Assembly: GCF_009905375.1 (NCBI RefSeq)
Contig: NC_133647.1
Span: 3,037,847 to 3,101,846 of the forward strand
DNA: 64,000 nucleotides
Direction: 5' to 3'
DNA from: Apium graveolens
Lineage: Eukaryota; Streptophyta; Magnoliopsida; Apiales; Apiaceae
A program made the translations under genes and the position numbers. Position 1 is the stretch's first letter. Every line of letters begins with the position of its first letter. Under the pieces are notes generated by a model that ran no database searches, had not been told where the DNA came from, and saw only the letters and a list, made by a program, of their open reading frames with translations. Below, piece after piece: positions 33,466 to 64,000 of this stretch.

Positions 33466-33767
33466 TGTTTGATATATTTGAGATGTCATGTCTAATATGA
33501 TTTGTGTTTAGTTTTCAGAACTTAACAACAGGACAAATCAGGACTTACTGAAATCAGGACGTACTAGAAGTCAGAACTTAATATCAGAACTTAAGGTCAA
33601 ATCAGAACTTAAGTACGGGAAGACTTTCATATAAGGAAGGAAGCTGATTTACAGTTGAAGATCGAGACTAAAACAAAAGAAGATATGCATGGAAAGAGTT
33701 ATAAGACTAGAAGACTTATAGAAGATATCTGATTGATATATTTTAGGAGACAAAATTGTATTCCATA
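33466..33767 (+). repeat. 3' LTR of element B, first part
   Basis: Begins TGTTTGATATATTTGAG and matches the 5' LTR up to CCATA, where element D is inserted. It has a short internal duplication around 33590-33615 (AGGTCAAATCAGAACTTAAG) that the 5' LTR lacks. Confidence 0.9.
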
Positions 33768-42418: not shown

Positions 42419-42571
42419 GCCATCTTCATCAACATCTTCTGATGCTCCCCCTGAAACTATGCTCTCTGAGTTGGATCCTTCAGTATTTAAATTTTCAGAA
42501 TTATCAGAACTTGGCTTATCAGAACTTGATGAATCAGAACTTAAAGAGCCAGTTGTATGTTCTGATGCTTC

Positions 42572-44065
42572 TTAAGATGTGGTTGTATCTTCAGTATGCT
42601 CCCCCTGTACAGGTGCATCTTCCTTTGGCGTAGTCACCACAGTTTCAATAACATCAGAGTTTAATCCATCAGAGTTTGCAGTATCAGGATTTCGACTCTC
42701 AGGATTTTCAGTATCAGAATTTAAGTCTTCATTTTCAAATCTCAGCTGATCATGATCATTGAAATCTTCAAGTCCAATAATTTTCTTATCATCAAAGGAG
42801 ACATTGATAGATTCCATGACCACCCTTGTTCTCAAGTTATAGACTCTGAAGACTTTTGTGGAAAGTGGATATCCAACAAAGATTCCTTCATCAGCTTTTA
42901 GATCAAATTTGGATAGCTGTTCAGGATGAGTCTTAAGAACAAAACACTTGCATCCAAATACATGAAAATACTTCAGATTTGGCTTCTTTTTCTTCACCAT
43001 CTCATATGGTGTCTTTCCATGCTTGTTAATGAGTGTTGCATTTTGAGTAAAACAAGCAGTCTGCACAGCTTCAGCCCATAAATAGGTTGGAAGCTTTGCT
43101 TCATCAAGCATAGTTCGTGCAGCTTCAATAAGAGTTCTATTCTTTCTTTCAACAACTCCATTTTGCTGTGGATTTCCAGGAGCAGAAAATTCCTGCTTGA
43201 TTCCATGGTTTTTGCAGAACTCTTTCATTAACAAATTCTTGAATTCAGTGCCATTATCACTTCTTATTTTCTTTACAGAATCTTTGTCCAATTTATCCAG
43301 TTGCTTGATATGATCAATCAAGATAGATGGAGTTTCACTTTTTGTGTGCAAGAAATACACCCATGTGTATCTGGTAAACTCATCCACTATGACCATAGCA
43401 TATTTCTTCTTTGCAATAGACATGACATTTACTGGACCAAATAGATCAACATGTAATAGGTGATAAGGCTCAAGAATTGATGATTCAGTCTTGCTCTTGA
43501 ATGAAGATTTTCTTTGTTTAGCCTTCTGACATGAATCACAAAGGCCATCAGGAGCAAATACTGACTTTGGCAGTCCTCTCACAAGATCTTTCTTGACTAA
43601 TTCATTTATATTGTTGAAATTTAAATGAGAGAGTTTCTTGTGCCAGTTCCAGCTTTCTTCAATTGAAGCTCTACTCATCAGACAGATTGCAGAACCATCA
43701 GTACTTGTTGAAAGCTTGGCTTCATAAATATTACCATGCCTGTATCCTTTCAGAACAACTTTGCCTGTAGATTTACTTACAACTTCACAGTGTTCTTCAA
43801 AGAAATCCATATGATAACCTCTGTCACAGATTTGACTAACACTCAGCAGATTGTGTTTAAGTCCTGAGACCAGAGCTACTTCTTTAATGATGACATTCCC
43901 AAGATTGATATTGCCATATCCCAATGTTTTTCTAATGTTGCCATCTCCATAAGAAACACTTGGGCCAGCTTTCTCCACAAAGTCTGATAGCAGGGCTTTA
44001 TTTCCAGTCATATGTCCTGAACATCCACTGTCTAGAACTAGGATGTTTTTCATGTTGCCCTGCAA
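42572..44065 (-). CDS. Protease and integrase of element D (497 codons, ends in premature stop)
   Basis: Retroviral-type aspartic protease at the N-terminus (DSGCSGHMTG, residues 12-21). GAG-pre-integrase zinc finger with H...H...C..C starting WHKKLSHLNF near 142 and ending CDSCQKAK. Integrase core with the triad in HVDLFGP near 206, RSDNGTEF near 270 and the Glu of ERKNR near 305 (35-residue spacing of copia integrases). C-terminal part with YFHVFGCKCFVL and GIFVGYP. The first residues lie just after the gag stop region, so a continuous gag-pol frame is likely in the intact family. TAA at 42572 falls in the Ser/Thr-rich integrase-RT linker. Confidence 0.92.
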   Translation of the reverse strand: MQGNMKNILVLDSGCSGHMTGNKALLSDFVEKAGPSVSYGDGNIRKTLGYGNINLGNVIIKEVALVSGLKHNLLSVSQICDRGYHMDFFEEHCEVVSKSTGKVVLKGYRHGNIYEAKLSTSTDGSAICLMSRASIEESWNWHKKLSHLNFNNINELVKKDLVRGLPKSVFAPDGLCDSCQKAKQRKSSFKSKTESSILEPYHLLHVDLFGPVNVMSIAKKKYAMVIVDEFTRYTWVYFLHTKSETPSILIDHIKQLDKLDKDSVKKIRSDNGTEFKNLLMKEFCKNHGIKQEFSAPGNPQQNGVVERKNRTLIEAARTMLDEAKLPTYLWAEAVQTACFTQNATLINKHGKTPYEMVKKKKPNLKYFHVFGCKCFVLKTHPEQLSKFDLKADEGIFVGYPLSTKVFRVYNLRTRVVMESINVSFDDKKIIGLEDFNDHDQLRFENEDLNSDTENPESRNPDTANSDGLNSDVIETVVTTPKEDAPVQGEHTEDTTTS

Positions 44066-44077
44066 TCACAAAGACCA

Positions 44078-46416
44078 CTAATGATTAGTTTTAAGGACCC
44101 AGACTTGCTTGGATCCTTTGGCCTTATTAAGTTTGTTAACATTTGCAGCGGATTTAGCATCAGAGTTTATGTTAACATTTTTCTTATCAGTATTTACACT
44201 ATCAGACTTTGAATCAGAACTTACACTAGAAGGAACAATGCTAACTTTCTTTAAAGAAGGTTTTATTTGATAATAATCATAGTACAAACTATGATATTCC
44301 TTACAAGTATAAATGGAATACCATAAACTACCACAATGAAAACAAGGATTTTATGGCATATATCTAACAGACTGACTCTTAACTCCTGACTTTGAAGGTA
44401 AGGAGTTTATGTTCTTATTCTTCCTGCAAAAAGAAGCCAGATGGTTAGAACTTCCACAGTTATGACATGTTTTTCTAGGAGCATTAGGAACAAGTTTGTA
44501 ATCATTGCTTTTATTCACACCTTCTTTTCCATTCCTATTTTTCCTAGGTGATTTTACCTTGTCTGCATTCTTAATATCTTTCAGCTTATGCTTAAGCTGC
44601 TTCTTTGTCATTAAGCCTATGTTTACTTCAGTTGTCTTTTCCTGTTTTAGTTTGTCAGAAGTTAATTCCTCTTTAACTTCTGATTTCTCAGTTTCAGACT
44701 TTACAGCTACAAACTTAACAGGTTTTAACTTTGGCTTTTGTTTAACAACTATAGCCTTAATATCTACAATTCCTTTATCATTCTTATCATCTCCATAACC
44801 TAAGCCCTCTTTTCAGTTTCCATTACTTAACAAATTCTGAATTGTTCTGCCAAAGTTAGTCCAAGTCCTTATAATCTCTCTTTCCTTTTCTAACTCAGCT
44901 TTTAGAGATTCATTCATTTTAAGTACTTCATCCCTAACATAGAAAGCATCATCTCTATCTTTCTGAGTTTGATGGAACATGACTAACTCTTTTTTTAAAT
45001 AGTCATTCCTCTTTTTACAAGCAAGATTTTCAGAAGTTAATCTTTCACATGTTAAAGTTTGATCTCTATAGCTAATGAACATGGTTTTAAGATATCTTCT
45101 CAACTCATTAATATCATCAGTATGAAAGGTATAACTAGTTTGAGGTACCTTTAACTCAGCAGCTTCAGTACTGCTTTCAGCATTTTCCATATCAACATTT
45201 GCCATCAAGGCATAGTTCTCCTCACTTTCAGAATCTGAGGTGTCTGTCCAACTTTTCTTCTTTGTGACAAGATCCTTTCCTTTGCCACTCTTCACTTCCT
45301 TGCAATCAGGAGATATGTGGCCTTTCTCACCACAGTTGTAGCATTTGACATTTGTGTAATCTCCTCTGTCAGACTTTCCTCCTTTGCCTTCAGATTTTCT
45401 GAAATTCTTCTTATCAGAACTTGCACCTTTCCTGTAAAACTTCTTTCCCTTCCTAAACTTCCTGTATACAATCTTTGTGATTCCTTTCACCATAAGAGTA
45501 CACAGCTTTATCATCTCTTCATCAACATCCGTCTCAGGCAAGATTTCAGATTCTGAGTCATCATCACTATCAGAACTTGATGACTCAGTATCAGACTTTG
45601 TGAAGAGCACTTTACCCTTGCCTTTCCTTGAGGTGGCTGCCTTGGGAGATTCTTCTTCAGTCTTAAGGGCAACTGTTCTTGACTTTCCTCCTTTCCTCTT
45701 GCTTCTTTATTCCATCTCAAGTTCATGAGTCTTGAGCATCCCATAGATTTCATCAAAGTCGTTTCATCAAGATTATAGTTGTCTCTTATAGTTGTTGCCT
45801 TTAAATCCCAGCTTTCAGGAAGAGCTAACAGGAATTTAAGGTTTGAATCTTCAAGATCATACTCCTTATCAACCAGTGACAAATCATTCAAGAGTTTGAC
45901 AAATCTATCATATAAATCAGTCAATGACTCATTAGCCTTTGAGTCAAAGTGTTCATACTCTTGAGTGAGTATTGTCTTCCTGTTCTTCTTAATCGTATCA
46001 GTTCCCTGACATCTTGTTTCCAAGGAATCCCATATCTCCTTTGCAGTTTTGCAGTTTATTACCCTGTTTGACATTACATTATCAATGGCACTATGCAGTA
46101 AATGTCGTACCTTAGCATCCTTAGCAATTGATGCGATATCTTCAACAGTGTAATCACTCTTCTCCTTTGGTACAGACTTTGCTGCTTCACCTACAACTGC
46201 AACAACGAGTTTTGTTGGATTGTGAGGTCCTTCCTTGATTCTATCAAGATATTCTGGATCTGTAGCTTCCAGAAAAACAGTCATCCTTACCTTCCATATG
46301 GGATATTCAGATGGTTTCAATATGGGAACTCTAATAGCCTCATATCGGCTATGGATTTGTGTCTTTGGAGGTTCTTCAGTTTTGGTGGGCTTAGTTGGAG
46401 TTTCAATTTCAGACAT
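44078..46416 (-). pseudogene. Gag of element D, several frames
   Basis: 46416-45511: copia gag N-terminal domain (YPIWKVRMTVFLEATDPEYLD, INCKTAKEIWDSLETRCQGT, QEYEHFDSKANESLTDLYDRF). Frame is lost near 45720-45770, then 45610-44813 carries an acidic Ser-rich stretch, a zinc knuckle CYNCGEKGHISPDC and a helix-rich coiled-coil-like tail. 44611-44351 has a second zinc knuckle CHNCGSSNHLASFC; 44287-44078 is the end. Start chosen at MSEIETPTKP, 42 bases after the primer-binding site. Two CCHC fingers and a long coiled coil fit SIRE-type gag. Confidence 0.85.
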
Positions 46417-46457: not shown

Positions 46458-46470
46458 GGCTCTGATACCA
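46458..46470 (-). other. Primer-binding site of element D
   Basis: TGGTATCAGAGCC on the minus strand, two bases after the 5' LTR; complementary to the initiator Met-tRNA 3' end, as in most copia elements. Confidence 0.9.
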
Positions 46471-46472
46471 CT

Positions 46473-47076
46473 TGTTTGGTCACACACACTGTAGAAGGGG
46501 GTTGAATACAGTGTATAGCACAATCAAATCGAATTCAAATAACACAAGTAACAGAAAACAGACTTTATTCAAAGTAATAAACTCTGTTATAATATGGAAC
46601 TGTCCTCTCTCAGTGATGAATAAATATCACGAGAGCTGCTAGGGTTACTATGAATAATATTCTCGATAATGATAACACTTATAGTGTAAACCCTATTTCT
46701 GTATTTATATACTACACAGTTACAAGATAATTGCTAATTGATATGGAATATAATTCTGCTTCCTAAAATATATCAATCAGATATCTTTTCTTCCAAGTAT
46801 TCTATTCTTCATAGAATTCCTTCTTCATGCATATCTCTTCTTACATTTGTCTCGATCTTCTTTCATCAATCAGCCGCCTTCCTTATCTGAACGTTTCGTT
46901 TAAGTCCTGATATTATCTTCTGATAAATATCTCTTGAACCTTAAGTACTGATGACTTAAGTTCTGACTTCAGTATAAGTGCTGATTTCAGTTAAGTACTG
47001 ATTTGTCTTGTTTAAGTAAGATCTGAAAACTAAACATAAATCATATTAGTCATGACATTATCAAATATATCTAACA
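46473..47076 (-). repeat. 5' LTR of element D (604 bp)
   Basis: TGTTTGGTCACAC to ATCTAACA on the plus strand; TATA box on the minus strand at 46704-46711. Followed by the CCATA target duplication. Confidence 0.92.
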
Positions 47077-48700: not shown

Positions 48701-49701
48701 TGTTAGTCCCTAAAAATGCAACAAGAATTATAGAAGGGGGTTGAATGGAATTCATGAAACTTTTTCTGAATCACAAAATGTTCTATCTTAATAATATATA
48801 TAAGTGTTTGATTTACTAAGGGCAAAATAAGAGTTAGTTAAATCAAAACATAAAGTAATAAAAACACAAGTCTTTAAAACTTTCTGGTGGATTTGAATGT
48901 ATCCACCAGAGATATATATATCAAGAGAACCCTGTGAAGCTTGAATAGCTCACAGCTGCTTACAATAATAAGAACAACTAAACTTACAGAGAAATGCTAA
49001 AAATACAGCTTACAATTGTTTCTCTTTGAAAATGTATTGCTTAGTCTTGTTGTAGTTCTAATTGCTACTCTTGGTTTATATATCACCAAGATTACACAGT
49101 AATAAGACAAGATAACAAAAAAAACCTACCAAGTCTAATACTATGCTACTTCATTACTCAATTCCAGCATCTTTGAATATCTTCATAATAGCATGGAAAT
49201 GGCAATGCTTCTTTGTTTTTAAAAACCCAGTTGAATAGGCTTCCACATTCCTTTTGCATACACTCGACGCATGTGACTGTGTTGTCACTGTCAACTGATG
49301 TTTGAATTGATTATCCATCGGGTACATGATCATCCATCGGGTTGCCTTGTTGATCATCCGTCGGGTAGTTATTTGGCACTTGACTTCATTTTATTTATGT
49401 AGAATTACAAGACATCATCTATGTACAATTAATCAACCTATTCTACATATCTAATTAAACTCAACATGAATTATATGCTACCACAGAATCTAAACAAAGG
49501 TGTTTGCAGAAATGTGCTTCATGACTTATTATTACACAAGCTACTCACTCGACGGATAACAAATCATCATCCTTCGGGACTATATTGAGTCATCCGTCGA
49601 GACTAAATTCCTTATCCTTCGAGTGCTATATTTTTCACTAAGTTAAATCTACTAAGGTGTTTTGTTCATGAAATCATCAAGTTCACATCATATTCACAAC
49701 A
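48701..49701 (-). repeat. 3' LTR of element F (1001 bp)
   Basis: TGTTAGTCCCTAAAAATGC to TCACAACA on the plus strand. TATA box (TATATAA on the minus strand) at 49076-49084 inside a small inverted repeat. Seven or more ATCC(G/A/T)TCG(G/A)G words at 49310-49620, upstream of that TATA box. Confidence 0.92.
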
Positions 49702-49716
49702 ATCTCCCCCAATTTA
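49702..49716 (-). other. Polypurine tract of element F
   Basis: TAAATTGGGGGAGAT on the minus strand, next to the 3' LTR. Confidence 0.85.
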
Positions 49717-49992
49717 TGTCTACTAGAATTGTAGCCATAAATTAAGAGAAGCTTGATGATAACAAAACACCCTAAAAATATAAATTTAAATGGAAGTAGA
49801 TAAAACTGTAAAGTGCTTCAATTAACAAAATGTACAAAGATTTGCTCACAGTCATTTTCAAGGTGCTCCTCAAGCCTGAGCAGATTAATCTATTTCCTTG
49901 AAGATCTGGATCTCTTTCCAAGCTTTCTGTTATTTTTTCTATCTGATTTTGGAGCTGTCTGTGGAATTCCAGTTCATCAGATTATGAGAGAT

Positions 49993-52900
49993 TTAACATT
50001 TCTGCATTTCCAAAAGAGTCTCATTGCTAGAGATGCTCAATTGGTCTTCTAATCTGAAGAATCTTCTTACTCCTTTATCATCCATGAATTCCATCACCCA
50101 ATAGGGCCTTGGATGCACTCTACTCCATGTGTAAGGAATAGTTAGAGTCTTTGGGAGTGCATCTTTGGCTCTAATACTCCTCGGTTCTTCAATCTTCTTT
50201 AGAACAAGTCTTCTAGCTGTCACATTGAATCCAAAGTTCTTCTTGTAGGATGAATAAACCTTTATCAGCACAGATTGGCTTTCTTGAAGGATCCTGTGAA
50301 GTGGCCACTATATCTCTTTTCCTCCCTTATACTTGAATACTAACCTTTCAGGTAGAGACCTGTAAGCATCAATCCCTCTAACTTCTTCCAGTTCATCTAG
50401 ATAGAGGTTTAAATCTGAGAATTCCTTGATGTCACAAATGTACATGATGTCTCCCTTGTTGACTTTGGTTTAAGCTTTGGTTAGGGACTTGGATCTGAGA
50501 GTTGAGGGCTTCACTTTCTTGACTGCTCTGGTCATTGTCGTCTTTGGCTTCATGAATTGAGGTAGATTGAGTTCAGGTATTGGTAGACTATCCCAGTATA
50601 TTGGCTCATCCTTTGGAATGATAGGTTCACCATGAAAGTTCTTGGATGGATCTATCTTAAATTCTCCATGTGCCACAGAGGGCATGGATGTTTGAGTTGT
50701 TGCAAATATAAACTCTTTGGGAAAGTACCCTTCCATCTCCTCATCACTGAAGTCCAATTTTCTCTTGATTCTTTGCTTGTACCTTGGCTTCTTTGTCTGT
50801 GGAGGTGCATTTTGCATTTTTTGATCTCGAGATTCAACAATTTCAGATGGTTGTGCAGAAATTTGTTGTGTGGGTTTCACAGCTTGTAACTTGGCCAAGA
50901 TAGCAACTTGCTCCTTCTTTTGTTTGACCTTTTTAGTATCTAGAGCAGCTTGCTTTTTTTCTTGTTTCAATCTTGCCTTTTCTTCTCTCGTTGCTTCATC
51001 AAATTGAGGATGTCCAGCCACCACACAAATTTCCTTACCATTCCTGAAAACTTTAGCAATTCTTCTTTTCAATGCTGAATCAGCTGGATCCTTGTAGAAT
51101 GCTATAGACCTGGCCAACAGCTTCTTTTTATCAGGCTTTGGTGTCTCATACACTGTGTCCAAGGGGTTCTTTAGTAAAGATTTTGGATAGTTCACCTTTG
51201 GCTTCAAAATTAGCTTAGCCTTTGGAGATTTGATGCAGGATGGCTGTCCTCTATCCAGATTATTCATGCTCATTTCATTCACAGAGATTTGCCTGACTTG
51301 AGAGTGATGAATGGCTGATTTTTTTGGCTTCTTTGCTAGCCCAAACTTCTTTTGTATATCCTCATCAATTTTCTCCCAGTTGATTGGACTCAACTGCTTC
51401 TTTTCAGCTGCTCTCAATGTGGCTGCTGCTTCATTAATCAGATCAATGATGTTTGTAGTTGGTGGCTTCGTGAAAGCAATTGTAGGCACAATTACTTTGC
51501 TAACTTGAATGTTAAGCTGCTTCTCCCCCTCACTTGAGTCTTTCTCCCCCATTTTGTTATCATCAAGTTGTGTGGGAGGGAGTTGAGCAGCCACCAACTG
51601 TTGAAGAAGTGCAGTTTGAGCTTCTTGATTGTTAAGTATCTTGGCCATTGACTTCTCTACAGCTGATAGTCTTGAGTCCATGGCCTCAACTTTCCTATTG
51701 AGATAAGCCTCCTTCCTTAGCTTTTGAGCAATTTCAGTCACGGTGGTTACAGGGAGTCTAGCATCCATCCTCTCTATAACATATTTCTTGACTTCAAAAA
51801 TCTCTTGCTTGATTGCATCCACACTCTGATTGTGTTGAAGGGCTTGAATTTTATGCAGCTAGAGTGCTTCAAGATGTGATGTCAGTAGCTTCTTTGTGCT
51901 AGCATTAGTAGATGCCTGAATGGCTGCTTGGGTGTCATGAATTAGCTTGAATAGTGTTGATTGGAGATGTGAGTAGGAACATTCTTTTATAAGCATCCAG
52001 GCAGGAACAGCTGCATCTCCCCCTATGTCCATGCTATCTTCCTCATCATCCCCATCAGCATCCCTAAAAGAAGCTTCATACAGTTCAAAATCACTGCCAA
52101 TGTTGGAAGGCATAGCAGTGATTGCATCATTTGGTCTTTGTAAAGATTGTGTAGTATACACCAAGTTCAACAATCTTTCAGCCTCCTCATTACCCTTTAC
52201 AGCTAGAGTTTGGTAAGCTGTCACAGGGTGAGTAAATGTCTCAGCATCCAGGGAAATGGAATCTATAACAGCTTGATATTCTTGCTGAAATAGCCTTTCC
52301 CTTTCTGCATCATTGACATTCATTGACTCACTTACAATGGTTTTCACCCTTATCACTCCTGTACCTGCATTTCTCTCTTGATCTCTCTTTTGTTGCATCA
52401 AGGTCTCACCTTGGCTCCCCACCCTCACACCCTCACCTTCACCATCTAAGGTGGGACTCCTCACACTCACTTTTTCCAATCCTGAAGAAATGGATTGCAT
52501 TTGTTCACTCTTTTCCTCTCTTTTTTCCTGGGAGTAACCCAGACTCTCACTCATTTCACTCCATTCCCTCAATCCTAGGAGTGATTGCACTACTACTAAG
52601 TCTTCTACACTTGTAATAATTGATGAATTTTGAAGCTGTGTAGAGACACTCGACATATAAGGGATATCCGTCGGGTTAGCAGTTTGACTATCCGACGGAT
52701 AACTGCTGTTAAGCTTATCCGTCGGGATACAATCACTACTCGACAGATGAACAATATCCATCGAGTGAATAGAAATGAATGAGTTTGGAGTGGAAAGTAT
52801 TGTGGACTCTGTGCAGATTGATGAGAATTTTGGCACAGATGTCTCAACAGTTTCAGAAAGAAATGGCAAGTGAGCAAACAAATCATCTAGAAGATGATGC

Positions 52901-54394
52901 TCACTTGCTTGGATTTTTGGCTTCTCCAAGAGAATTAAAGATGGAGAATTTGGAAGTGATGTGTTTATCATGTCAACATCCAAAGTGTGTGTGGGAGAAT
53001 TTGGCATTTCAGGGGCTTCAATTGTTAGTGATTTTGGTTGTGACTCCACATTTATTGGAGTCACATCAACCTGACTTTGAGAAGGTGCAGTGACTGTGTC
53101 TTTAGCACCAGTTTGCACAGTACATCCCCAAGGGTCTTTGATTTCTTCTTTCTAGTGTAAATTTGGGGTGAGCTTGTGTCCCTTACCCTTTTGGCCTGTG
53201 CTCTTGGCTGAGAGCTTTGTTCAATAGTCACATCCTTTTGGGAGGATACAACTAGTAATGAGCTTATATCCTTATTAAGCACTGCAGTTTGTTGGAAAAC
53301 TGCAGGATGGCTAGGTTGGGAAACACTCACCTCTCCAATCATATCCTTAGGGTTTCTTTGATGTTCACCTTGTCCCTCACCTTTCTTACCCACCTTCACA
53401 CTCCCCTCTTTTGGTTTGGTGGATTTTACAACTGGCATCTTTTGAGAGACACCAGAGGGGGCTTTCTTTGTCTTTGTTTTTGAAATTTTGGGTTTGGCAG
53501 CTTGGGTAGGCAACTGTTGGGTCACTGACACAGTTTCCATAGCTATACTAGAATGTAAAGAAGTTTGTGAGGATGGAAGGGTAGAGACTGCTAAACTTAC
53601 CTCACTTACCTGAGGTGCCTCCATAACAGGAAAATAGAAGAGTGGCAACTCTTTGTGATGGTTTGCCCTATTCAAGTCTGCAATGATTCTTCTTTCTTGA
53701 ACCCAACAATCTAATTTGTTGTTTGGGTTCTCAAGCACAATATCCTCAGAGAGGTGGTTAGCAAGCATCATTAAAAATCTGGCATAGTAAACATTTTTAC
53801 CCCTCTTATTTAGCTCCCCTAACTTAAACCCCAACTCAAATATGACAAGATCAGTAAAGTTAAAAAATTTATCAGTAACTAGCATGTATAGCATGTTAAG
53901 CATAGAGATATTGACTGAATCAAAATTACTGATTTTACCAGAGAATACCTTAGTAACTACATCACATAGATAACTCCATTCCTTCCTAAGATCCAACCTC
54001 CTAATTTCACTTAATTTAGAAGTAGAGAGTGCATAGCCCATGAAGTTAAGCATATTAACAATGTCAGTGTCTGTGTGTGGTGAAGTTACAGTATTATCAG
54101 GAATTTTGAAACATGCTTTAACAATATCACTATTAACTCAAAATTCCTTACCATTAATAGTGAAAGTGATAGTCTTATCAGTTGAGTTGTAGCAGTCATC
54201 TACATCTCTTCAACAACTTCACAGTAGATGGTGGGTGATTCTAGCATGGCATAGTTGAGTTTGCTGTTCTTCACAAAATCCATCATTTTATGGTAGTCGC
54301 CAGACTGTTGAATCCCCTTGTTCACAAGAGCAGTGAAATTGTTCTTCTCATAGATAAATCTAGTTTGAGACATGATCTTGACGACTAGTGCCAT
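49993..54394 (-). pseudogene. Extra ORF of element F (envelope-like position)
   Basis: Pieces in order: 54394-54200 (start MALVVKIMSQTRFIYEKNNF), 54053-53061, 53118-51859, 51822-50470 and 50271-49993. The N-terminus resembles those of D and E (NNFTALVNKG..., SKLNYAMLESPTIYCEVVEE; RKEWSYLCDVVTKVFSG against KEWSFFFDCITKAFG in D). A Ser/Thr/Pro/Gln-rich middle with basic blocks (PKISKTKTKKAPSG) follows. 51822-50470 begins with a likely coiled coil (residues 1-70) and a Lys-rich C-terminal half. The last piece contains YWVMEFMDDKGVRRFF, near the KIYFKDGTFNL of E. Unbroken length would be about 1400 residues. No signal peptide, membrane helix or catalytic motif seen. The reading frame changes are all in or near simple sequence. 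Confidence 0.72.
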
Positions 54395-54505
54395 TGTTAG
54401 AGAGTAAAAACTTGCAGAGAGAGACATTAAGTGCTTTTGAGAAAGAGAGAAGTTAGAGCAGATAATTTGAGAATGATAAAAGAAAAACAATGAAAATGAA
54501 TTATG

Positions 54506-54513
54506 CTTTTATA
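54506..54513 (-). promoter_or_regulatory. Internal TATA box of element F
   Basis: TATAAAAG on the minus strand about 113 bases before the ATG of the extra ORF, followed by a CT-rich leader (CTAACTTCTCTCTTTCTC). Upstream, 54618-54830, lies a cluster of F-family motif words in both orientations, including TGACGGATGATC, CTCGATGGATAATG and ATCATCCGTCGAG. Confidence 0.6.
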
Positions 54514-54918
54514 CTATCTCAAAAATAACTGTCAAAAATAATAAAGTAAAATAAAGTGACCAATAAAAATTTCCCAAAATAGTCATTTTTTTAAAAAATA
54601 AACTGTAAAAATTCTATCAATTATCCGTCGTGTTATGCTTACAAACTGTAAGTATACTCGATGGATAATGTTTAGAGAATCAACGGCTAAAAATAAGACA
54701 ATTCGAAGGATGGGGATAAATCAGTTATCCGTCGAGTCACAAAATATTCCAGAAAATAATTGATTTTATTAAAAAATAGTATACTGACGGATGATCAAAC
54801 TCGATGGATAATGATCATCCGTCGAGATGTAAATTTTGACTTAGCCAAAATTTCTTTTAAAACTGAAAATCAATTAGATTTCTGGCTACATTACAACTTG
54901 CAAATTATCTGGAAAGAT

Positions 54919-55776
54919 TCAAGAGTAATTAAACATACCTAACTCACTTACCAACCTTGAAAAAGTGGATTCATCCAGTGGCTTGATAAATATATCTGCA
55001 AGCTGTTTTTCACTTGGAACAAAATGTAGTTCCACAGTACCATTCATTACATGTTCCCTTATAAACTTGATGTCTATGTGCTTTGTTCTTGAATGTTGTA
55101 CTGGATTTTCAGTGATGGCAATTGCACTTGTGTTATCACAGAAAATAGGAATCCTTTCCACTTGCAGACCATAGTCTAGCAATTGGTTTTTCATCCACAG
55201 AATCTGTGCACAGCAACTTCCAGCAACAATATATTCAGCTTCAGCTGTAGAAGTAGAAACTGAATTTTGCTTTTTACTGAACCAGGACACGAGCTTGTTT
55301 CCTAGAAATTGACAGATTCCTGTTGTACTTTTTCTATCAATTCTGCAACCTGCATAATCTGCATCTGAATAACCAGTTAGATCAAAACCAGAATCTCTAG
55401 GGTACCAAATGCCAAGTTTTGGTGTTCCCTTGAGATATCTGAAAATTCCTTTAATAGCTACTAAATGAGATTCTCTAGGATCATCCTGAAATCTAGCACA
55501 AAGACATGTAGCAAACATTATATCTGGCCCACTAGCTGTTAAGTACGGAAGTGAGCCAACCATGTCTCTATAACTTGAAATATCCACAGACTTTTCAGTA
55601 GTGATTAATTCAATCTTGGTTGCAGTGGCCATGTGAGTTTTTACAGATGTGCAATCCATTAGATCAAACTTCTTTAAAAGATCATAAATGTATTTAGTTT
55701 GACTAATGAATATTCCATCACTAACTTTCTTAACTTGTAAACCAAGAAAGTAAGTTAGTTCTCCCATCATGCTCAT
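54919..55776 (-). pseudogene. RT C-terminal part and RNase H of element F
   Basis: 285 codons: [21 protein letters not shown] (RT end), [122 protein letters not shown] and terminal MFNYS. A short loss removes a few residues between HIDIK and FIREH. Acidic RNase H residues remain. RT is disconnected upstream by frameshifts. Confidence 0.88.
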
Positions 55777-55945
55777 TTCATACCTTGCATCAATTTGGCA
55801 AACGTTTTACAAAGTTTCTCATCTGTAGAGCCAAAAATAATGTCATCTACATAAATTTGAACAAGTATACTAGAGCCATTAAATTTCAAAAGAATAAGGT
55901 TTTGTCAACAGTACCTCTTGTGAAATGATTCTCTAAAAGGAATTT
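55777..55945 (-). pseudogene. RT active-site segment of element F, out of frame on both sides
   Basis: The YVDD codons are intact at 55842-55853, but frameshifts on either side detach them from RT upstream (ends 55946) and downstream (starts 55776). One sign of decay is the missing alignment around 55775-55800. Confidence 0.75.
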
Positions 55946-56559
55946 TCATAAAGTGTCATACCAGGCTCTAGGTGCTTGCTTCAGTCCATAAAGTGCTTTC
56001 AAAAGATAGTAAACATATTCTGGAAAATTTGGATCTTCAAAACCAGGAGGCTGACTGACATATACTTCCTCCTCCAAATCTCCATTCAGAAAGGCACTTT
56101 TGACATCCATTTGATAGACCTTAAAATTGGCATGGGCTGCATAGGCTAAGAAGATTCTGATGGCTTCAAGTCTTGCAACAGGAGCAAATGTTTCATCAAA
56201 ATCTATTCCTTCTTGTTGACAATAGCCCTTAGCAACCAATCTAGCTTTGTTCCTGACTACTATGCCATTTTCATACATCTTGTTTCTGAATACCCATTTG
56301 GTGTCTATTGGATTCTTTCCTTTAGGCTTGGGTACCAGCTTCCATACCTTATTCCTTTCAAATTGGTTTAGCTCCTCCTGCATAGCTAAAATCCAATCAG
56401 GATCCAACAAAGCTTCTTCTACCATCTTTGGTTCTTCCTTAGAGAGGAAGCTGCTATATAGATATTCTTCCTGAGTTGCTCTCCTTGTTTGAACTCTAGA
56501 AGATACATCACCAATGATGAGCTCAAAGGGGTGATCCTTTGTCCATTTCCTTTATTAAG
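55946..56559 (-). pseudogene. RT N-terminal part of element F
   Basis: Open after two adjacent TAA codons near 56553-56558 (CAACAG in copy C). [112 protein letters not shown]. Ends in a TGA next to the frameshift. Typical copia RT. Confidence 0.88.
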
Positions 56560-56779
56560 GTAGATTAGCTCTAGATGAAGAGGCCTCATTGTTGTCTTGA
56601 TGTGTGATTGAGTTTTGATTATTAGAAACTCCCCCTGAATTAATGGATCTTTGATTTGAGAAAGGGGAACTTTCTATAAATGATCTATTCTGACTTCCAG
56701 CTTCTTTTGATGATCCGACGGATGGTGAATTTTGAGTACCGATGGTTGAAGATGGTTGTCTCCCGACAGATAAAGCAGA

Positions 56780-57352
56780 TTATCTCCCGACGGATGGAGC
56801 ATTTTGCAACTCGACAGATGTTGAATTTTGTGCTCCATTGATAGTGGATTTTTCTGCATTATCCTTTGATACTGTTTCTTGATCACTTTCATCATCACTG
56901 TCATCACTAACCATCTCCACATTGTCAAATTTGAGGCTCTCATGATAATCTCCATCTTGTAGTCCTTCAATCTTTTTATCATCAAATGCAACATGTATTG
57001 ATTCCACAGCAATGTTGGTTCTCAGATTGTAGACTCTATATGCTTTACCACCAGCATATCCAACAAAAATTCCTTCATCTGCTTTAGCATCAAACTTCCC
57101 TTTCTTATCAGTTTGATTTCTCAAGATATAACATTTACAGCCAAAGACATGAAGAAAATTTAGAGTTGGCTTCTTGTTCTTGAACAATTGATAGAGAGTC
57201 ATTCATTTTGCTTGATTAACTAGAGAAATATTCTGAGTGTAACATGCAGTATTTACAGCTTCAGCCCAGAAATATGTTGGTAACTTAGACTCTTCAAGCA
57301 TTGTCCTTGCAGCTTCAATAAGTGATATGTTCTTTCTTTCTACTACTCCATT
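56780..57352 (-). pseudogene. Integrase C-terminal part and linker of element F
   Basis: Sequence after the TAA at 57353-57355 still encodes the glutamate-bearing part of the integrase core and then 57202-56780: YQLFKNKKPTLNFLHVFGCKCY, GIFVGYAGGKAYRVYNLRT, VAFDDKKIEGLQDGD, and an acidic S/D-rich linker. The linker region 56700-56830 carries CCGACGGATGG-type motif words. Confidence 0.82.
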
Positions 57353-58255
57353 TTATTGTGGAGTTCTTGTTGCTGAAAACTCATGAAAAATCCCATTTTC
57401 TTCACAAAATACTCTCATGAAAGAATTTTTGAACTCAGTTCCATTATCACTCCTGATTCTTTTAACTTTGAAATCAGGATGATTGTTGACTTGCCTTATG
57501 TGATTGATGATGATTTCACTAGCCTCATCTTTGGACTTAAGGAAATATGTCCAAGAGAACTTTGAGAAATTATCTACAATTACTAGGCAAAATCTTTTCC
57601 TTGAGATGGATAACACATTGACTGGTCCAAATAAATCCATGTGTAGCAGTTGTAAAGGTTCTTCAATTGTTGAATCAAGCTTCTTTCTGAATGATGCTTT
57701 AATTTGCTTTCCCTTTTGGCAAGCATCACACAGTCCATCCTTAGAAAATTCCACTTGAGGAATGCCTCTAACCAGTTCTTTCTTTACAAGTTCATTCATG
57801 GTCTTGAAGTTTAGATGGGATAGCTTCTTGTGCCATAGCCAACTTTCATCTTGACTTGCTTTACTAAGAAGATAAATAACAGATTCTGCATTTGATGAGT
57901 TGAAGTCAGCTAAGTACACATTCCCTTTTCTCACTCCAGTGAGAACCACTTTGTTGCTTCTCTTGTTTGTCACAACACAGGTTTCTGAGTTGAAGGTTAC
58001 TGAATTGCCTTTGTCACACAGCTGGCTGATGCTCAACAAATTATGCTTGAGACCATCCACTAAGGCAACCTCCTCAATGATGACATTGTCTTTTGAAATC
58101 AAGTTATATCCCATAGTATAACCCTTGCTGTCATCTCCAAAAGTAATACTTGGGCCAGCTCTCTCCTTGAACTCTGTGAGCAGGGTAGAATCACCAGTCA
58201 TGTGTCTTGAACAACCACTATCCAAGTACCATAGATTCTTTATGTTTCCCTGCAC
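57353..58255 (-). CDS. Protease and integrase N-terminal part of element F (300 codons, premature stop)
   Basis: Aspartic protease DSGCSRHMTG at residues 12-21; zinc finger WHKKLSHLNF near 140 to CDACQKGK; integrase core first Asp in MDLFGP near 205 and second in RSDNGTEF near 271. The TAA comes before the Glu of the triad, so no active integrase. Sits right after the gag remnant, in the same arrangement as element D. Confidence 0.9.
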   Translation of the reverse strand: MQGNIKNLWYLDSGCSRHMTGDSTLLTEFKERAGPSITFGDDSKGYTMGYNLISKDNVIIEEVALVDGLKHNLLSISQLCDKGNSVTFNSETCVVTNKRSNKVVLTGVRKGNVYLADFNSSNAESVIYLLSKASQDESWLWHKKLSHLNFKTMNELVKKELVRGIPQVEFSKDGLCDACQKGKQIKASFRKKLDSTIEEPLQLLHMDLFGPVNVLSISRKRFCLVIVDNFSKFSWTYFLKSKDEASEIIINHIRQVNNHPDFKVKRIRSDNGTEFKNSFMRVFCEENGIFHEFSATRTPQ

Positions 58256-58269
58256 ACATTAAAATCAAA

Positions 58270-58668
58270 TCAAGTTGATTTCGGTACCCAAGTTTCCTTG
58301 GGTCCTGCCTTGTTAGATTTCTTCTTCTGTTTCTTAGGTTTGATCTCATTTGACTTGAGGATATCAGATTCATCCTTAGTCATCTGAGTTGAACCTTTGA
58401 AACCATTCATTAAAACAAAATTATCATGCACATTTTGATTAACAGGAAGTGGTATGCTATTAGTAAATATGTTATTCCAGTAGGGCAGGCTAAATGGCAT
58501 TTGAGGCATACTAAATGCAGCATAATAAGGATTAGGTGCAAATGACATATTAGCAAATTGTGCATTCATATTCTGTGTAGACATAGCATTCATAGGAAAA
58601 AAGGCATGGCATTCATGTTGGAAAAAGGAGGTGGCACATATATTGTAGTAGGCATGGCAGTTTTGCAA
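58270..58668 (-). pseudogene. Gag C-terminal tail of element F, shifted frame
   Basis: Continuation of gag after a frameshift near 58600-58660. Met/Asn/Pro/Phe-rich (PMNAMSTQNMNAQFANMSF) followed by a Lys-rich end (KPKKQKKKSNKAGPKETW). The tail before protease in D has the same Lys-rich KAKGSKQVW type end. Confidence 0.7.
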
Positions 58669-60668
58669 TTAACAGACAGATGATTTACAGTACAACACTT
58701 TTCACAGATTTTTCTTGGAGCATACTTATCAGGTGTGTAGTTGTTATGCTTGTTAATCCATACTTTACCATTTCTATTGTTTTTCTTTTTAGCCTCTGTT
58801 TTACCCTCAATCTTTTCTAGTCTGTCATTCAATTGCTTGATAGACAGATGGCCAACATTCACTTTCTTCTCCTTCCTCACTTGACTAGATTCTCTTGAAA
58901 TGAAGTTTTTGGAAACTGATCCATATTTATCATTTAACTTGGCAAGTTTGACTTTACTCACAGGTTTGCTCACAGCCGACGGATGAGGATTTATGTCACT
59001 CGACGGATAATCCTTTTGATTATCCGACGGATGACTCTCATCATCCGTCGAGTCCATATATGTTAGCAATCCTTCAACCAAATTGGATTCCAGCTTCTCC
59101 TTATTCTTCTTCCAGGCTGCATCACAAAAGGACTCAATACCTTGAACTTTGGTGATTTGAGCATGAACATCTCTAGATGTTTTCCATGCCTTAATCACCT
59201 CTTGTTCTCGTTCAAGCTGCTTCTTCAAGATCTCTTCTTTCTTCAAGGACTCAGTTAATTCATCCTTAGCAATTTTACACTCAATTCTCAGTTTTTCAAA
59301 TTCAATGAACTGAGACTCTAGCACATTATTTCTCTCACTTAAAAACAAGATATTTTCTTTGATTTTAGCATGTTCCTTAGTGAGGGACTTAAGTGTAACA
59401 CGCAAATGATATAATTTTATAGACATGTCATTTATAGCATCATTACACTCAGCTTTAGATAAATGTGCAAGGTTAGTGGTGATTACTTGATTACTTGAAG
59501 AAGTTGTCTCCGTTTCATCAGACTTGGCCATTAGGGCTAGATTGACATAGCTGACATCCTCATCCTCATCCGGACCATCTGCTGCCCAGTCATTTTCTTG
59601 TGTAATGAAAGCCCTTTCCTTTTGTTTGAGAAAGTCAAAATATTTATGTTTATAATCCACAGGCTCAAACTTCTTCTTGCTGGAATCTGACTTTCTACAC
59701 TCACTGGCAAAGTGCCCTGCCAAGCCACATTTGAAACATTTGAATTTTGATTTATCCACCATGTTTCTATTTGGCTTAGCTGCTCCAAAGTTCTTCTTGA
59801 ACTTGAGCTTGGCAAATCTTCTGGAAAGAAATGTAAGATGTTCATCAATATCCTCCATGTCATCTTGGCTCAAAGAATCTTCATTTTCTGCTACCATCCC
59901 CTTGCCCTTGTTTTCACAGACCTTTGAAGTAGACTCAACAACTTCTATCTTCATCTCCTTCTCTTTCAATAACTCAACAACCAGTGCAATGGACCCTCCT
60001 TTCTTTCTCCCTTTCTCCATTCTTTCATCTTGCTCTATTTCAAGCTCATAAGTCTTTAGAATGCTATATAGTCTCTCTAGTGTAAACTCATTGTATTCTT
60101 GTGAGTTTCTCAAGGAGACTGTTATGGGTTTCCATTCTTTTGGTAGGGATATCAGAAACTTGAGTATAGAATCTTTAGTTTGGTAGACTCTTCCATGCAG
60201 CTTTAGAGCATTTAGTAGCTTTTGAAATCTACTAAAGATATCAGTGAGAGTTTCACTTTCTTCAAAGTGGAAATGCTCATATTGCTGAATTAGTAGCTGC
60301 ATCTTATTTTCTCTAACTTGTTCAGTGTCATCACAGATAATCTGAATTGTATCCCAAACTTCCTTGGCAGTTTTGCAATTGATGATGTTGTCAAACATGT
60401 CACCATCAACTCCATTAAACAGAATATTCATGGCCTTCTTATCCTTCCTGACTTGTTCAATATCAAGATCTGACCATTCATGCCTTGGCTTGGGAACTGA
60501 TGGCTCATTTCCAGTTGCAGCTCTTATTTGTACATGAGGGCCTCTTTCTATGCAATCTACATAGGCCTCATCTTGAGAAAGTAAATGAACATGCATCTTT
60601 ACCTTCCAGTGATGGTAATTATCTTTGTCCAAAAAAGGAATCTTGACTCCAACATCCTTCTTGTTCAT
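58590..60668 (-). CDS. Gag of element F (about 692 codons)
   Basis: Start chosen at MNKKDVGVKIPF, since the frame further upstream runs into the primer-binding site. Copia gag N-terminus: DNYHHWKVKMHVHLLSQDEAYVD, INCKTAKEVWDTIQIICDDTEQVR, QQYEHFHFEESETLTDIFSRF, LPKEWKPITVSLRN. CCHC knuckle CFKCGLAGHFASEC near residue 309 and a second, CEKCCTVNHLSVNC, near 656. A long coiled coil lies between (NNVLESQFIEFEKLRIECK ... KKQLEREQEVIKAW). Two motif words with their reverse complements fall in a Ser/Asp/His/Pro-rich linker at 58975-59055. The frame is open over nearly the whole gag. Confidence 0.9.
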   Translation of the reverse strand: MNKKDVGVKIPFLDKDNYHHWKVKMHVHLLSQDEAYVDCIERGPHVQIRAATGNEPSVPKPRHEWSDLDIEQVRKDKKAMNILFNGVDGDMFDNIINCKTAKEVWDTIQIICDDTEQVRENKMQLLIQQYEHFHFEESETLTDIFSRFQKLLNALKLHGRVYQTKDSILKFLISLPKEWKPITVSLRNSQEYNEFTLERLYSILKTYELEIEQDERMEKGRKKGGSIALVVELLKEKEMKIEVVESTSKVCENKGKGMVAENEDSLSQDDMEDIDEHLTFLSRRFAKLKFKKNFGAAKPNRNMVDKSKFKCFKCGLAGHFASECRKSDSSKKKFEPVDYKHKYFDFLKQKERAFITQENDWAADGPDEDEDVSYVNLALMAKSDETETTSSSNQVITTNLAHLSKAECNDAINDMSIKLYHLRVTLKSLTKEHAKIKENILFLSERNNVLESQFIEFEKLRIECKIAKDELTESLKKEEILKKQLEREQEVIKAWKTSRDVHAQITKVQGIESFCDAAWKKNKEKLESNLVEGLLTYMDSTDDESHPSDNQKDYPSSDINPHPSAVSKPVSKVKLAKLNDKYGSVSKNFISRESSQVRKEKKVNVGHLSIKQLNDRLEKIEGKTEAKKKNNRNGKVWINKHNNYTPDKYAPRKICEKCCTVNHLSVNCKTAMPTTIYVPPPFSNMNAMPFFL

Positions 60669-60712
60669 CTTGTTGTTTGTTGTGATCTTTAAACTCTTTT
60701 TCTTCAAGAGCT

Positions 60713-60725
60713 TGCTCTGATACCA
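60713..60725 (-). other. Primer-binding site of element F
   Basis: TGGTATCAGAGCA on the minus strand, two bases after the 5' LTR; initiator Met-tRNA type. Confidence 0.9.
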
Positions 60726-60727
60726 AT

Positions 60728-61713
60728 TGTTAGTCCCTAACAATGCAACAAGAATTACAGAAGGGGGTTGAATGGAATTCTTGAAACTTTTTCTGAATTA
60801 TAAAATATTATATCTTAATAATATATATAGGTGTTTGATTTGCTAAGTACGGAATAAGAGTTAGTTAAATCAAAACACAAAGTAATAAAAACACAAGTCT
60901 TTAAAACTTTCTGTTGGATTTGAATGTATCCACCATATATATATATATATCAAGAGAATCCTGTGAAGCTTGAATAGCTCACAGCTGCTTACAACTATAA
61001 GAACAACTAAACTTACAAAGTAATTCTAAGGATACAGCTTATAATTGCTTCTCTTTGAAAATGTATTGCTTAGTCTTGTTGTAGTTCTAATTGCTACTCT
61101 TGGTTTATATATCACCAAGATTACACAATAATAAGACAAGATAATAAAAAACAAAACCTATCAAGTCTAATACTACGCTACTTCATTACTCTATTCCAGC
61201 ATCTTTGAATATCTTCATAATAGCATGGAAATGGCAATGCTTCTTTGTTCTATCAAACCCAGTTGAATAGGCTTCCACATTCCTTTTGCATACACTCAAC
61301 GTATGTGACTGTGTTGTTATTGTCAACTGATGTTTGAATTGATTATCCGTCGGGTGCCTTGTTGATCATCCGTCGTGTAGTTATTTGGAACTTGACTTCA
61401 TTTCATTTATACAGAATTACAAGACATCATCTATGTACAATTAATCAACCTATTCTGCATATCTAATTAAACTCAACATGACTTATATGCTACCATAGAA
61501 TCTAAACAAAGGGGTTTGCAAAAATGTGCTTCATAACTTATTATTACACAAGCTACTCACTCGACGGATAACAAATCATCATCCGTCGGGACTATATTGA
61601 GTCATCCGTTTGGACTATATTCCTTATCCGTCGAGTGCTACATTTTTTACTAAGTTAAATCTACTAAGGTGTTTTGTTAATGAAATCATCAAGTTCACAA
61701 CATATTCACAACA
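60728..61713 (-). repeat. 5' LTR of element F (986 bp)
   Basis: TGTTAGTCCCTAACAATGC to TCACAACA on the plus strand; TATA segment 61105-61113; (AT)n run at 60938-60951; motif words at 61343-61635. Slightly shorter than the 3' LTR because one motif copy near 61345-61360 is missing. Confidence 0.92.
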
Positions 61714-62823
61714 TAGTGGTCAGCTCTATCTTCTTTTTCTTCCTTGGTTTCTTGACCAGATGACTCATTTCCTCACTCTGGTCTTTTTCACTCTCAGGTA
61801 TTACATACATGGTAAATTATTTTCTCTTCTTGTTACTAGCTCCACCCTTTTGAGAGGATGAAGCAGTTGGTTTCCTAGCTTCTAGTGTTTGAGATGAAAG
61901 GTTTTCAGTTGTAGTAGGCCCATGTGGGTTGTCTTGTTTAGGTTCTTCTACATGACCAAGGCCATAATTGTACTAGATATTGCACTGCTTCTCATGTCAG
62001 GAATTGGATAAGGGTAAGTTCTAAATTTCCTCAACATAAAGTCAGGAATATTTAGACTTACCTTTACATGGTTCATTGTATTTAGTGATCCAAATAGAAT
62101 TTTGGACACTTGTTTACAAATGCCTATTTGATTCATCTATGCTTTCAATTAAAAATATGTCATTTACTTTATGATTTAAAGCATACATAATAAATCTAGA
62201 GAAAAATATTTCTTTACCTCAACTTATTAAAGGCATGGTTAGCCTTGTGCTCAGCTCCTCAAGGATCAAACTTCCAACATCAAGATGTTTGTCATATACC
62301 ATTGAGTACACCAGCTTCTGGACTACACTTGAGATGTTATCATAGCCAGTATTTCTGCATGTGAATGCCCTGATAATAGAGTCAAATAAAAAAGACTACT
62401 CCTTTCTCAGGTTCTTCTTGTTTAGTCTGGCCATGTCAAACTTCTCACTCTATTTGATGAAGTCCATGAATTCAGCCAATTCTTGAAAAGTTATGGATTC
62501 AACCATGTTGTTAGTAGAAATGCCCAGAGCTTTGTTTATGTTATTTGCATTAAACTCAGCAGCCACACCCATGATTGTGCAAGTGAATATCATAAAATTG
62601 TTTGATTATCATTAATATTAGTGTAAATAACTACAGTGTTCCAGAGTTCATTGAGAACATCCAAGTATTGCACATGATTGTCTCTTGGTGCTCCTGCTAG
62701 ATAGGAATCAACCACAAACTTCACAAAGCACCTGAAATTGTCTAGTTCCTGTAATGGGTCAACAAACGCAAGATAGTTGGTTTTATCCTTGGGGATAAAA
62801 GCTCTTACAGTGTTTGAAGCCAT
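61714..62823 (-). pseudogene. Element E extra ORF, N-terminal piece
   Basis: The start is clear: ATG at 62821-62823, MASNTVRAFIPKDKTNYLAFVDP, after a TATA box and leader. The first 77 codons (62823-62590) are open: LDNFRCFVKFVVDSYL, LNELWNTVVIYTN. Further fragments lead to the F insertion at 61713. The N-terminal pattern (N-Y-x-A-F/I-V/L near residue 17) recalls the extra ORF starts of D and F. Homologous to copy G from about 62190 leftward. Confidence 0.68.
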
Positions 62824-62961
62824 TTGAGAGATTGGGTATTAGTGGGTTAGAGTTTTTGAAAGAGAGAAAGCTCAAAAAGTTTGAGAGTGGTGAAAAATTG
62901 CAGTGATTAGGTCAATTAAGATCTCAAAAGCATAAATAGGGGTTTTGTCGAGATGTCTGGG

Positions 62962-62969
62962 TATTTATA
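62962..62969 (-). promoter_or_regulatory. Internal TATA box of element E
   Basis: TATAAATA (CACTATAAATACCC) on the minus strand, 139 bases before the ATG at 62823, with a leader holding CTTTCTCTCTTTC. E-family motif words TCGAGATGTC / GTCGAGGTC / TCGAGAAGTC stand at 62947-62957 and 63055-63420, mostly upstream of it. Confidence 0.6.
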
Positions 62970-63690
62970 GTGTAGAGATGTGACTTCTTGATAAGAGAAT
63001 AATGAACGCTTTAAAAGTGTTGTAGAGAAGTCACGTGACTTAGAGAACTCATTTCGAGATGTCACTTTCTTGACTCTTGTCGAGGTCTAGATATTGACTT
63101 ATCGAGATGTTGTACAAATACACAGTTTGTCCTTTTGGACTAAATTATCCTAATTTATATTGAAAAATTCAACATATAATTAGAATTAATATTATATCAA
63201 AAGTATTTTACTGAAATAATTTACTAAATTAATTTATTTCAGTTCCGAGTTATTGAGAAGTCTAAAATTTGAACAGTACAAAACTCCATATCGATAAGTA
63301 TATCGAGATCTCTACATTGTTTGTCGAAAAGTCATGAAAAAACCTATCGAGAAGTCTATCGAGAAGTCATGAAAAAGACTTAACGAGAAATCATTTAGAG
63401 ACTTAAGACAAGTCATTCAGACTTACCGAGAACTCAGTTCTCTACATACTTTTTTTCTTACAAGAACCCGTCTTATATCAGTTTCACATATCAATAATGT
63501 GAACTAATATTTAGACAGTTATTCTTAGAATTTAGAAAAACTCCAAGTTAGATTTGTTTTTGAGAAATAAATATACAGAGAATTCTGAAATATTTATAAA
63601 TCATATTTCAGTTAATTTCTAATTAAATTAAATTTATTTTGATTTATTAAGAATTAATCTGCTGTAAAATGTTAGCTGAGTTCTTGCCTT
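62970..63690 (-). other. Spacer between pol and internal promoter of element E
   Basis: No coding frame. About ten TCGAG/TCGATA words with CTCTACAT neighbours occur at 63055-63450; the remainder is AT-rich. Confidence 0.55.
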
Positions 63691-64000
63691 AGGATGAAAA
63701 ATTTAGCATACCAATTTCACTTACAAGTCTAATAAAAGGTGCTTCATCCAAAGGTTTAGTAAAAATGTAAGCCAACTATTTTTCTGTGGGAACAAATATT
63801 AGCTCAATGGTACCATTTGCAACATGTTCTCAAATAAAATGGTACCTTACATCAATGTGCGTAGTTCTGGAATGATTAACGGGATTAGCAACAATAAATT
63901 TGAACTAGTATTGTCATACATGAAAGAAGTCTTCTGTAACACTAGGTTATAATCTTTTAGTTGATTTGTAATCCAAAGAACATGAGTACAACAACTTTCA
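63691..64000 (-). pseudogene. RNase H C-terminal part of element E, decayed
   Basis: Enters from the right edge. The minus strand encodes SCCTHVLWITNQLKDYN-like sequence at 63955-63998, the counterpart of [17 protein letters not shown] in D and F, then scattered matches to the DNTS, REHV and FTKPLDEA blocks down to about 63700. Broken by stops and frameshifts. It shows that pol of E lies to the right of the window. Confidence 0.7.

Follow-up and report, generated by a model that had tools for sequence, protein, structure and literature searches.

The stretch of Apium graveolens DNA analyzed here (NC_133647.1, positions 3,037,847 to 3,101,846; 64,000 nucleotides, hereafter the window) consists of nested Ty1/copia Sirevirus elements in plant DNA. 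Short words recur along these elements in separate clusters, and between two sister families one letter of the word has changed in concert. Two elements, F and D, are bounded by long terminal repeats (LTRs), and besides gag and pol they carry an extra ("envelope-like", ENV) open reading frame (ORF). Sireviruses have the primer-binding site TATCAGAGC at the 5' LTR junction, and we found TGGTATCAGAGC at 46459 and 60714 (both on the minus strand). The polyC integrase signal of Sireviruses near the LTR 3' end was present as CAACCCCCTTCT in both LTRs of D and of F. These primer-binding and integrase-signal words fit Sireviruses. A polypurine-tract-type word, GGGGGAGATTG, stands at 49700 and 34370 on the minus strand, the Sirevirus form being AGGGGGAG, in multiple copies and 10 bp upstream of the 3' LTR. 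A search of the 3.33 Gb genome with the pattern of the 5' LTR/primer-binding-site junction returned 10,656 matches, compared to none for the reversed control. The first 30 junction places gave 30 loci, including the window's own F (L040) and D (L039), with L050 read from a neighbouring junction; internal sequences were fetched for nine elements, picked by LTR-end type among the listed junction places.

In an unsupervised count, ATCCGTCG was the most over-represented 8-mer of element F, with 15 copies observed against 0.01 expected under a second-order Markov model. Allowing one mismatch, we counted 36 words, of which 13 lay in the two LTRs, seven in the spacer between pol and the extra ORF, six in the extra ORF itself, and five each in the linker between integrase and reverse transcriptase (RT) and in the gag linker. 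No word was found at this threshold in the RT-RNaseH segment, the protease-integrase segment, the N-terminal half of gag with the untranslated region, the stretch after ENV or the leader behind the internal TATA. The clusters are thus five, spaced by approximately 2-3 kb (LTR U3, gag and pol linkers, spacer before the putative internal promoter, middle of the extra ORF), and those in coding segments hold both orientations of the word. The initial annotation of this DNA had reported such words upstream of the LTR TATA and of the internal TATA, and dinucleotide shuffles of the same regions (300, or 100 for the longer E word described below) bore this out for element F. With up to one mismatch, six words were present in 49310-49620 (shuffle mean 0.13), five in the corresponding region of the other LTR, 61340-61650 (0.20), and seven in 54618-54830 (0.25), numbers reached by none of the 300 shuffles in any region.

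The words of the coding clusters are translated differently from one segment to the next, as HPS and YPS in gag, PSVG in pol, and YPS or, reversed, PTD in the extra ORF; in the sister element I1 they read SVG/SVE in pol and YPS/PTD in the extra ORF, in both orientations. When synonymous codons were resampled, the observed counts in F gag and extra ORF were reached in none of 2000 trials. For F pol, whose linker frame contains a stop as found, the count was reached in 0/2000 trials with up to one mismatch and in 2/2000 for exact words. Codon choice was also biased in the clusters: the serine codon TCG made up 8/44 serine codons there against 0/218 elsewhere in the F ORF pieces (Fisher p 3.6e-7), and the proline codon CCG 6/14 against 2/113. 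Taken together, the differing amino-acid readings, the resampling and the codon bias indicate that, as far as sequence can tell, the word signal resides in the nucleic acid, independently of the encoded protein.

We then compared F with its relatives, in which the word exists in two dialects, ATCCGTCG (TCG) and ATCCGTTG (TTG), differing at base 7. The two elements of sister family H contain 57 copies of ATCCGTTG and a single ATCCGTCG, distributed over all five compartments. The TCG:TTG counts were 17:0 for F (one LTR), 21:3 for I1, 1:32 for H1, 0:25 for H2 and 5:12 for Q. Elements T and S (0:10 and 1:4) match F pol over only 350 and 526 bases, without the extra ORF, and their empty spacer and extra-ORF counts carry no meaning. 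For O1 (0:22), 11 sites first assigned to the spacer were discarded, as they match the LTR on the reverse strand (L066 4689-5067) with no extra ORF there, and were taken as an inverted second LTR. The 30 best-scoring of 40 F-family spacer loci, which include that of the window, contained 173 TCG and 6 TTG words. Distances of the words from the LTR in H1 and H2 are nearly those of F (gag ~1.7 kb, pol ~3.9-4.0, spacer ~5.9-6.1, extra ORF ~7.9-8.1 kb), and in I1 the internal distances are ~1.1 kb shorter and gag words are absent.

Aligned sites were compared in four pairs, which are not independent of each other (I1/H2, I1/H1, F/H2 and F/H1). Of 15 internal TCG sites in I1/H2, ten are ATCCGTTG in H2, three have T at base 7 with one or two more changes, two are lost and none is TCG. 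Base 7 thus differs in all 13 of the sites that persist, and their other seven bases differ at only 4/91 positions, compared to a divergence of 30-42% in the surrounding segments. The remaining pairs gave 10/15 exact TTG and one TCG (I1/H1), 9/12 exact TTG and no TCG (F/H2), and 7/12 exact TTG with one TCG, at the same H1 site (F/H1). Encoded amino acids follow the dialect (YPS vs YPL, PTD vs STD). In a tree of pol (1.7 kb; outgroups D and M), H branched outermost, then O+T, then S, Q and G+F+I in unresolved order; support was 98/98 for all but H, 100/99 for S+Q+G+F+I and 85/94 for G+F+I, with T and S occupying only 21% and 31% of the columns. Since H and O+T branch at the base, TTG would most simply be the ancestral and TCG the derived dialect, a change that gains a CpG, opposite to the usual decay. 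CpG decay as the source of TTG was rejected, given this position at the base of the tree and the absence of the decay product ATCCGTCA from H1, H2 and O1. Overall, in these alignments the words have diverged far less than the sequence around them, and sister families differ by a concerted change of one letter. This switch suggests recognition of the words by a matching protein. The proposal of the initial annotation that each family has its own putative binding site thereby gains strong new backing.

TATA-like words were present at the internal positions named for F and for two further families, E and D. The internal GTATAAAAGC is identical in F, I1, H1 and H2, with an ATG 107-119 bp downstream, in a spacer that is 40-42% different between F/I1 and H1/H2; Q has TATATAA at this position. 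This conservation supports a putative internal promoter, and the claim of family-private words before both the LTR TATA and the internal TATA is supported, the latter being kept in sister elements.

The other families have words of their own. In D, the top 8-mer of the unsupervised count was ATCAGAAC (18 exact copies vs 1.41 expected in the element), part of a longer word, ATCAGAACTT / AAGTTCTGAT. With up to two mismatches, D holds 95 of these: 15 in the LTRs, 20 in the spacer, nine in the pol linker, 14 in the C-terminal half of gag, 26 in the extra ORF and its 5' part, four after ENV, three each in the RT-RNaseH and protease-integrase segments and one in the N-terminal half of gag; at the same threshold F has 20 dispersed matches. 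In the D pol linker (42381-42571), four exact ATCAGAAC were found vs 0.27 in the codon null (0/2000 trials), and five vs 1.16 with two mismatches (3/2000); a 5' portion of this linker, which had been translated in the wrong frame and held stops, was left out of the comparison. The initial annotation had named TTCTGAT as the D word. This held well for the internal region 39580-39830, with four exact copies (shuffle mean 0.15) and 11 with up to one mismatch (2.48), neither reached by any of 300 shuffles, and in part for the LTR region 34190-34312, where no exact copy exists and five are found with one mismatch (mean 0.91; 1/300 shuffles reaches). For E, TCGA was enriched as claimed in 26150-26460 (4 vs 1.49; 7/300 shuffles reach) and in 63055-63420 (7 vs 3.14; 0/300). 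A longer E word, TATCGACAAGTC, gave 14 vs 0.47 and 11 vs 0.56 in these regions with up to three mismatches (0/100 shuffles each). The assignment of the 26-kb LTR and the 63-kb internal piece to one element E was not substantiated, as the self-comparison lists no alignment between them. Family M has its own word, GGTATGACAATCGG, in the LTR and spacer (11 internal copies with up to three mismatches vs 0.31 in shuffles); the longer E and M words were picked only after inspection of the sequence.

Internal counts of each element's own word were far above shuffles (F 12 and I1 15 for TCG, H1 20 and H2 19 for TTG, D 18, M 11, E 18). Foreign words did not exceed shuffles, with single hits of TTG in I1, of TCG in H1, and of TTG and ATCAGAAC in M. 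The words are thus family-private. The F, H, D, E and M words (ATCCGTCG, ATCCGTTG, ATCAGAAC, ATCGAGAAG, ATCGGTATG) all have ATC near one end, like a shared half-site; a single ancestral word behind them was considered and set aside, the shared ATC being not beyond chance by a rough estimate. The features are collected in Table 1.

Table 1. Positions of LTRs, word clusters and associated features in the window (mm, mismatches).
Feature	Position	Strand	Remarks
F 3' LTR	48701..49701	-	self-BLAST; 8 words (≤1 mm) at 49265-49621, upstream of TATA ~49076
F extra ("envelope-like") ORF	50470..54394	-	several broken frames in this copy; limits approximate
F cluster in extra ORF	52666..52763	-	6 words (≤1 mm)
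F internal TATA GTATAAAAGC	54496..54516	-	followed by pyrimidine-rich leader and AACAATGGCAC
F spacer cluster (pol/extra-ORF interval)	54623..54824	-	7 words (≤1 mm), both orientations
F cluster in pol (integrase-RT linker)	56713..56819	-	5 words (≤1 mm)
F cluster in gag (C-linker)	58977..59050	-	5 words (≤1 mm), 4 exact; 735-amino-acid frame open in this copy
F 5' LTR	60728..61713	-	self-BLAST; 5 exact words, 61345-61633
D 3' LTR	33760..34371	-	self-BLAST; ATCAGAACTT-like words (≤2 mm) 34180-34322
D words in extra-ORF pieces	34588..38181	-	21 words (≤2 mm)
D spacer	39574..40713	-	20 words ATCAGAACTT (≤2 mm), before internal TATA ~39359
D cluster in pol (integrase-RT linker)	42434..42722	-	9 words (≤2 mm)
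D words in C-terminal half of gag	44159..45599	-	14 words (≤2 mm)
D 5' LTR	46465..47076	-	self-BLAST; ATCAGAACTT-like words (≤2 mm) 46885-47027
E-type spacer cluster	62982..63435	-	TATCGA(G/C)AAGTC words, upstream of TATA ~62962
E-type LTR array	26154..26461	-	same word as E spacer; 38-bp tandem units; no alignment to the 63-kb piece in the self-comparison
G (sister of F) pol-linker words	13868..13948	+	ATCC(G/A)TCGAG, period 24

Some further repeats were observed. Both 16243-16790 and 26154-26461 repeat a 38-bp unit in tandem and contain the E word TATCGACAAGTC, and the two stretches are only ~70-75% alike. In M (L071), the spacer ~6.0-6.43 kb past the junction contains inverted repeats composed of the M word. 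In L052 and L053, CGAATGGA (seven and nine copies) and GCATTCGC are strongly over-represented in bases 1-1500 before the junction; they may represent the LTR word of another family or belong to a repeat nearby. The window also holds two pairs of direct repeats with 97% identity, 5602-9130/19829-23328 (~14 kb apart) and 9122-13483/28129-32488 (~19 kb apart), which suggest duplication of nested elements.

Part of this pattern is known. Bousios et al. (2010, BMC Genomics 11:89, PMC2829016) describe element-specific repeated motifs upstream of the LTR TATA and of ENV in Sireviruses and propose an internal promoter, so that the core idea of the initial annotation is already covered there. The clusters described here resemble the Sirevirus RM box in their position upstream of the LTR TATA and of ENV. 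However, the RM box is palindromic with a CGG-CCG core, whereas ATCCGTCG, ATCCGTTG and ATCAGAAC are by inspection not self-complementary and the D word has no CpG; in addition, gag, pol and the central part of the extra ORF hold clusters here as well. A concerted dialect switch is not mentioned in the parts of that article considered here, and we found no report of gag/pol clusters or of such a switch in the open-access library that we searched. The LTR palindromes of maize Sireviruses (Bousios et al., 2016, Genome Research) are likewise fast-evolving repeated motifs of the LTR regulatory region, but the passages on them in PMC5311732 describe LTRs only and tie them to small RNAs. The closest working model, by analogy, is VANC of the VANDAL transposons, an anti-silencing system of Arabidopsis (Hosaka et al., 2017, PMC5735166). 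There too, short words differ between related families and stand at several places in each element, and the element itself encodes their reader, a protein with highly variable regions; binding is demonstrated there and proposed here. Besides binding the motif, a VANC-type protein removes methylation. VANDALs are DNA transposons, however, and VANC21 sites are non-coding, unlike the gag, pol and extra-ORF clusters.

We propose that each Sirevirus family carries its own array of short double-stranded DNA sites, read by one co-evolving sequence-specific protein, an explanation that, as a whole, we hold to be somewhat more likely than not. Its central part, family-private DNA words read by a co-evolving factor, we consider quite likely, and here the concerted switch would point to a matching protein acting in trans. 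As to whether the reader is encoded by the element, our confidence is evenly divided. It would then most likely be the product of the extra ORF, driven by the internal promoter; its binding would activate the LTR and internal promoters and would shield the whole element from silencing, as in VANC/VANDAL, and dialects would arise as protein and word co-evolve, despite the amino-acid changes that this would impose on gag, pol and the extra ORF. That this product is a nuclear, family-specific DNA-binding anti-silencing protein, made from the internal promoter, and not an envelope, is a tentative identification, on which we lean to doubt. The dramatically reduced CG methylation reported for the middle of sunflower SIRE elements (2026, PMC12844716) would fit anti-silencing, other causes being possible.

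Among possible readers, the extra ORF appears to be the best candidate: it has its own conserved internal TATA, P0001 contains a bipartite basic stretch and no 19-residue window with hydropathy of at least 1.6, and the ORF diverges faster than RT. Between H2 and F, three pieces of it are 50%, 55% and 72% identical (60% and 64% for H2 vs I1), compared to 89.5% for a 201-amino-acid RT piece. Among relatives of the extra ORF whose source is named, the closest come from Apium graveolens, Heracleum and Daucus; the F RT piece had no relative among viral contigs. Gag, the integrase or a host protein are possible readers as well.

Several observations weigh against the proposed explanation, beginning with the reader. 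A KR...KK basic stretch like that of P0001 occurs in only 9/34 extra-ORF relatives, and a hydrophobic window of at least 1.6 in 14/34 (ten of these from Heracleum). A Pfam search with the F and H2 extra ORF found no domain, and the predicted fold is poor (pLDDT 54). Because published Sireviruses without ENV retain LTR boxes (PMC2829016), the boxes do not require ENV as their reader, or at any rate not an ENV encoded in cis. The switch is also impure, as I1 has three TTG and H1 one TCG, and Q mixes the dialects even inside compartments (LTR 1:6, gag 0:3, pol 1:1, spacer 3:2; internally four TCG and six TTG). Nor is a word evident everywhere: only 13/30 sampled LTRs, the window's D LTR not being one of the 13, had a top 8-mer with corrected log10 p < -2, these words being of ATCCGTCG/ATCCGTTG type in eight, AAGTTCTGA in three and another word in two. 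The D 5' LTR alone (L039) gave no significant 8-mer, and no significant word was found for family R. Finally, the E-like copies at 5602-9121 and 19829-23328, ~75% identical to parts of E, contain only two to three E words, the word there being either lost or another dialect.

The words could instead be read by host transcription factors, each family having captured a different one, for instance a MYB protein for the TTG dialect, whose CCGTTG fits what we take to be the MYB core, CNGTTR. The derived TCG dialect would destroy that core. Clusters upstream of the TATA boxes in LTR and spacer agree with host factors, and published Sirevirus boxes mostly match sites of stress-related factors (PMC2829016); however, this reading offers no obvious reason for sites in the coding linkers of gag, pol and the extra ORF, nor for a one-letter change at nearly all sites, and we regard it as rather unlikely. 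Confining the words to a code of two promoters, as the initial annotation did in tying genomic RNA to extra-ORF transcription, accounts for the clusters at both places and for the conserved internal TATA. Both clusters are indeed present, but 16/36 F sites (≤1 mismatch, both LTRs) fall within three coding segments that are separate from both promoters, with the same word and the same dialect switch, so promoter coupling cannot be the whole function. We therefore rejected the two-promoter code as a sole explanation, its probability being very small. The observation behind it is real, stronger and broader than first noted, and the reading given to it was too narrow.

Action in RNA was also weighed, with inverted copies forming hairpins for packaging, dimerisation, small-RNA production or translation control, and complementarity forcing the concerted change. 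Six of eight folded F windows had z ≤ -2.3, down to -5.4 (two overlap and two are the same LTR site), the D spacer window had z -2.8, and maize Sirevirus LTR palindromes are small-RNA hotspots (PMC5311732). In contrast, the F pol-linker cluster folded no better than shuffles (z -0.26), and the D pol linker (-1.37) and E spacer (-1.29) not clearly better. The five pol sites of I1 all point the same way, as do 11/12 LTR sites of H1, so pairing is not the common property and hairpins are an improbable basis for the words. Neutral spread by repeat slippage, gene conversion or CpG decay would suit those clusters that form tandem arrays (periods of 24 or 38, for example), but is hardly credible for sites that occur on either strand and in more than one codon phase, that changed at so few positions outside base 7 when kept between I1 and H2, and whose switch gains a CpG.

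Sireviruses make up a large share of some plant genomes. If a co-evolving reader is indeed encoded by the element and protects it, it would constitute an anti-silencing system in LTR retrotransposons, and self-recognition by an element-encoded protein would extend from the VANDAL DNA transposons to this class. A dialect switch running through promoters and coding sequence predicts that F-type and H-type proteins would discriminate TCG from TTG.

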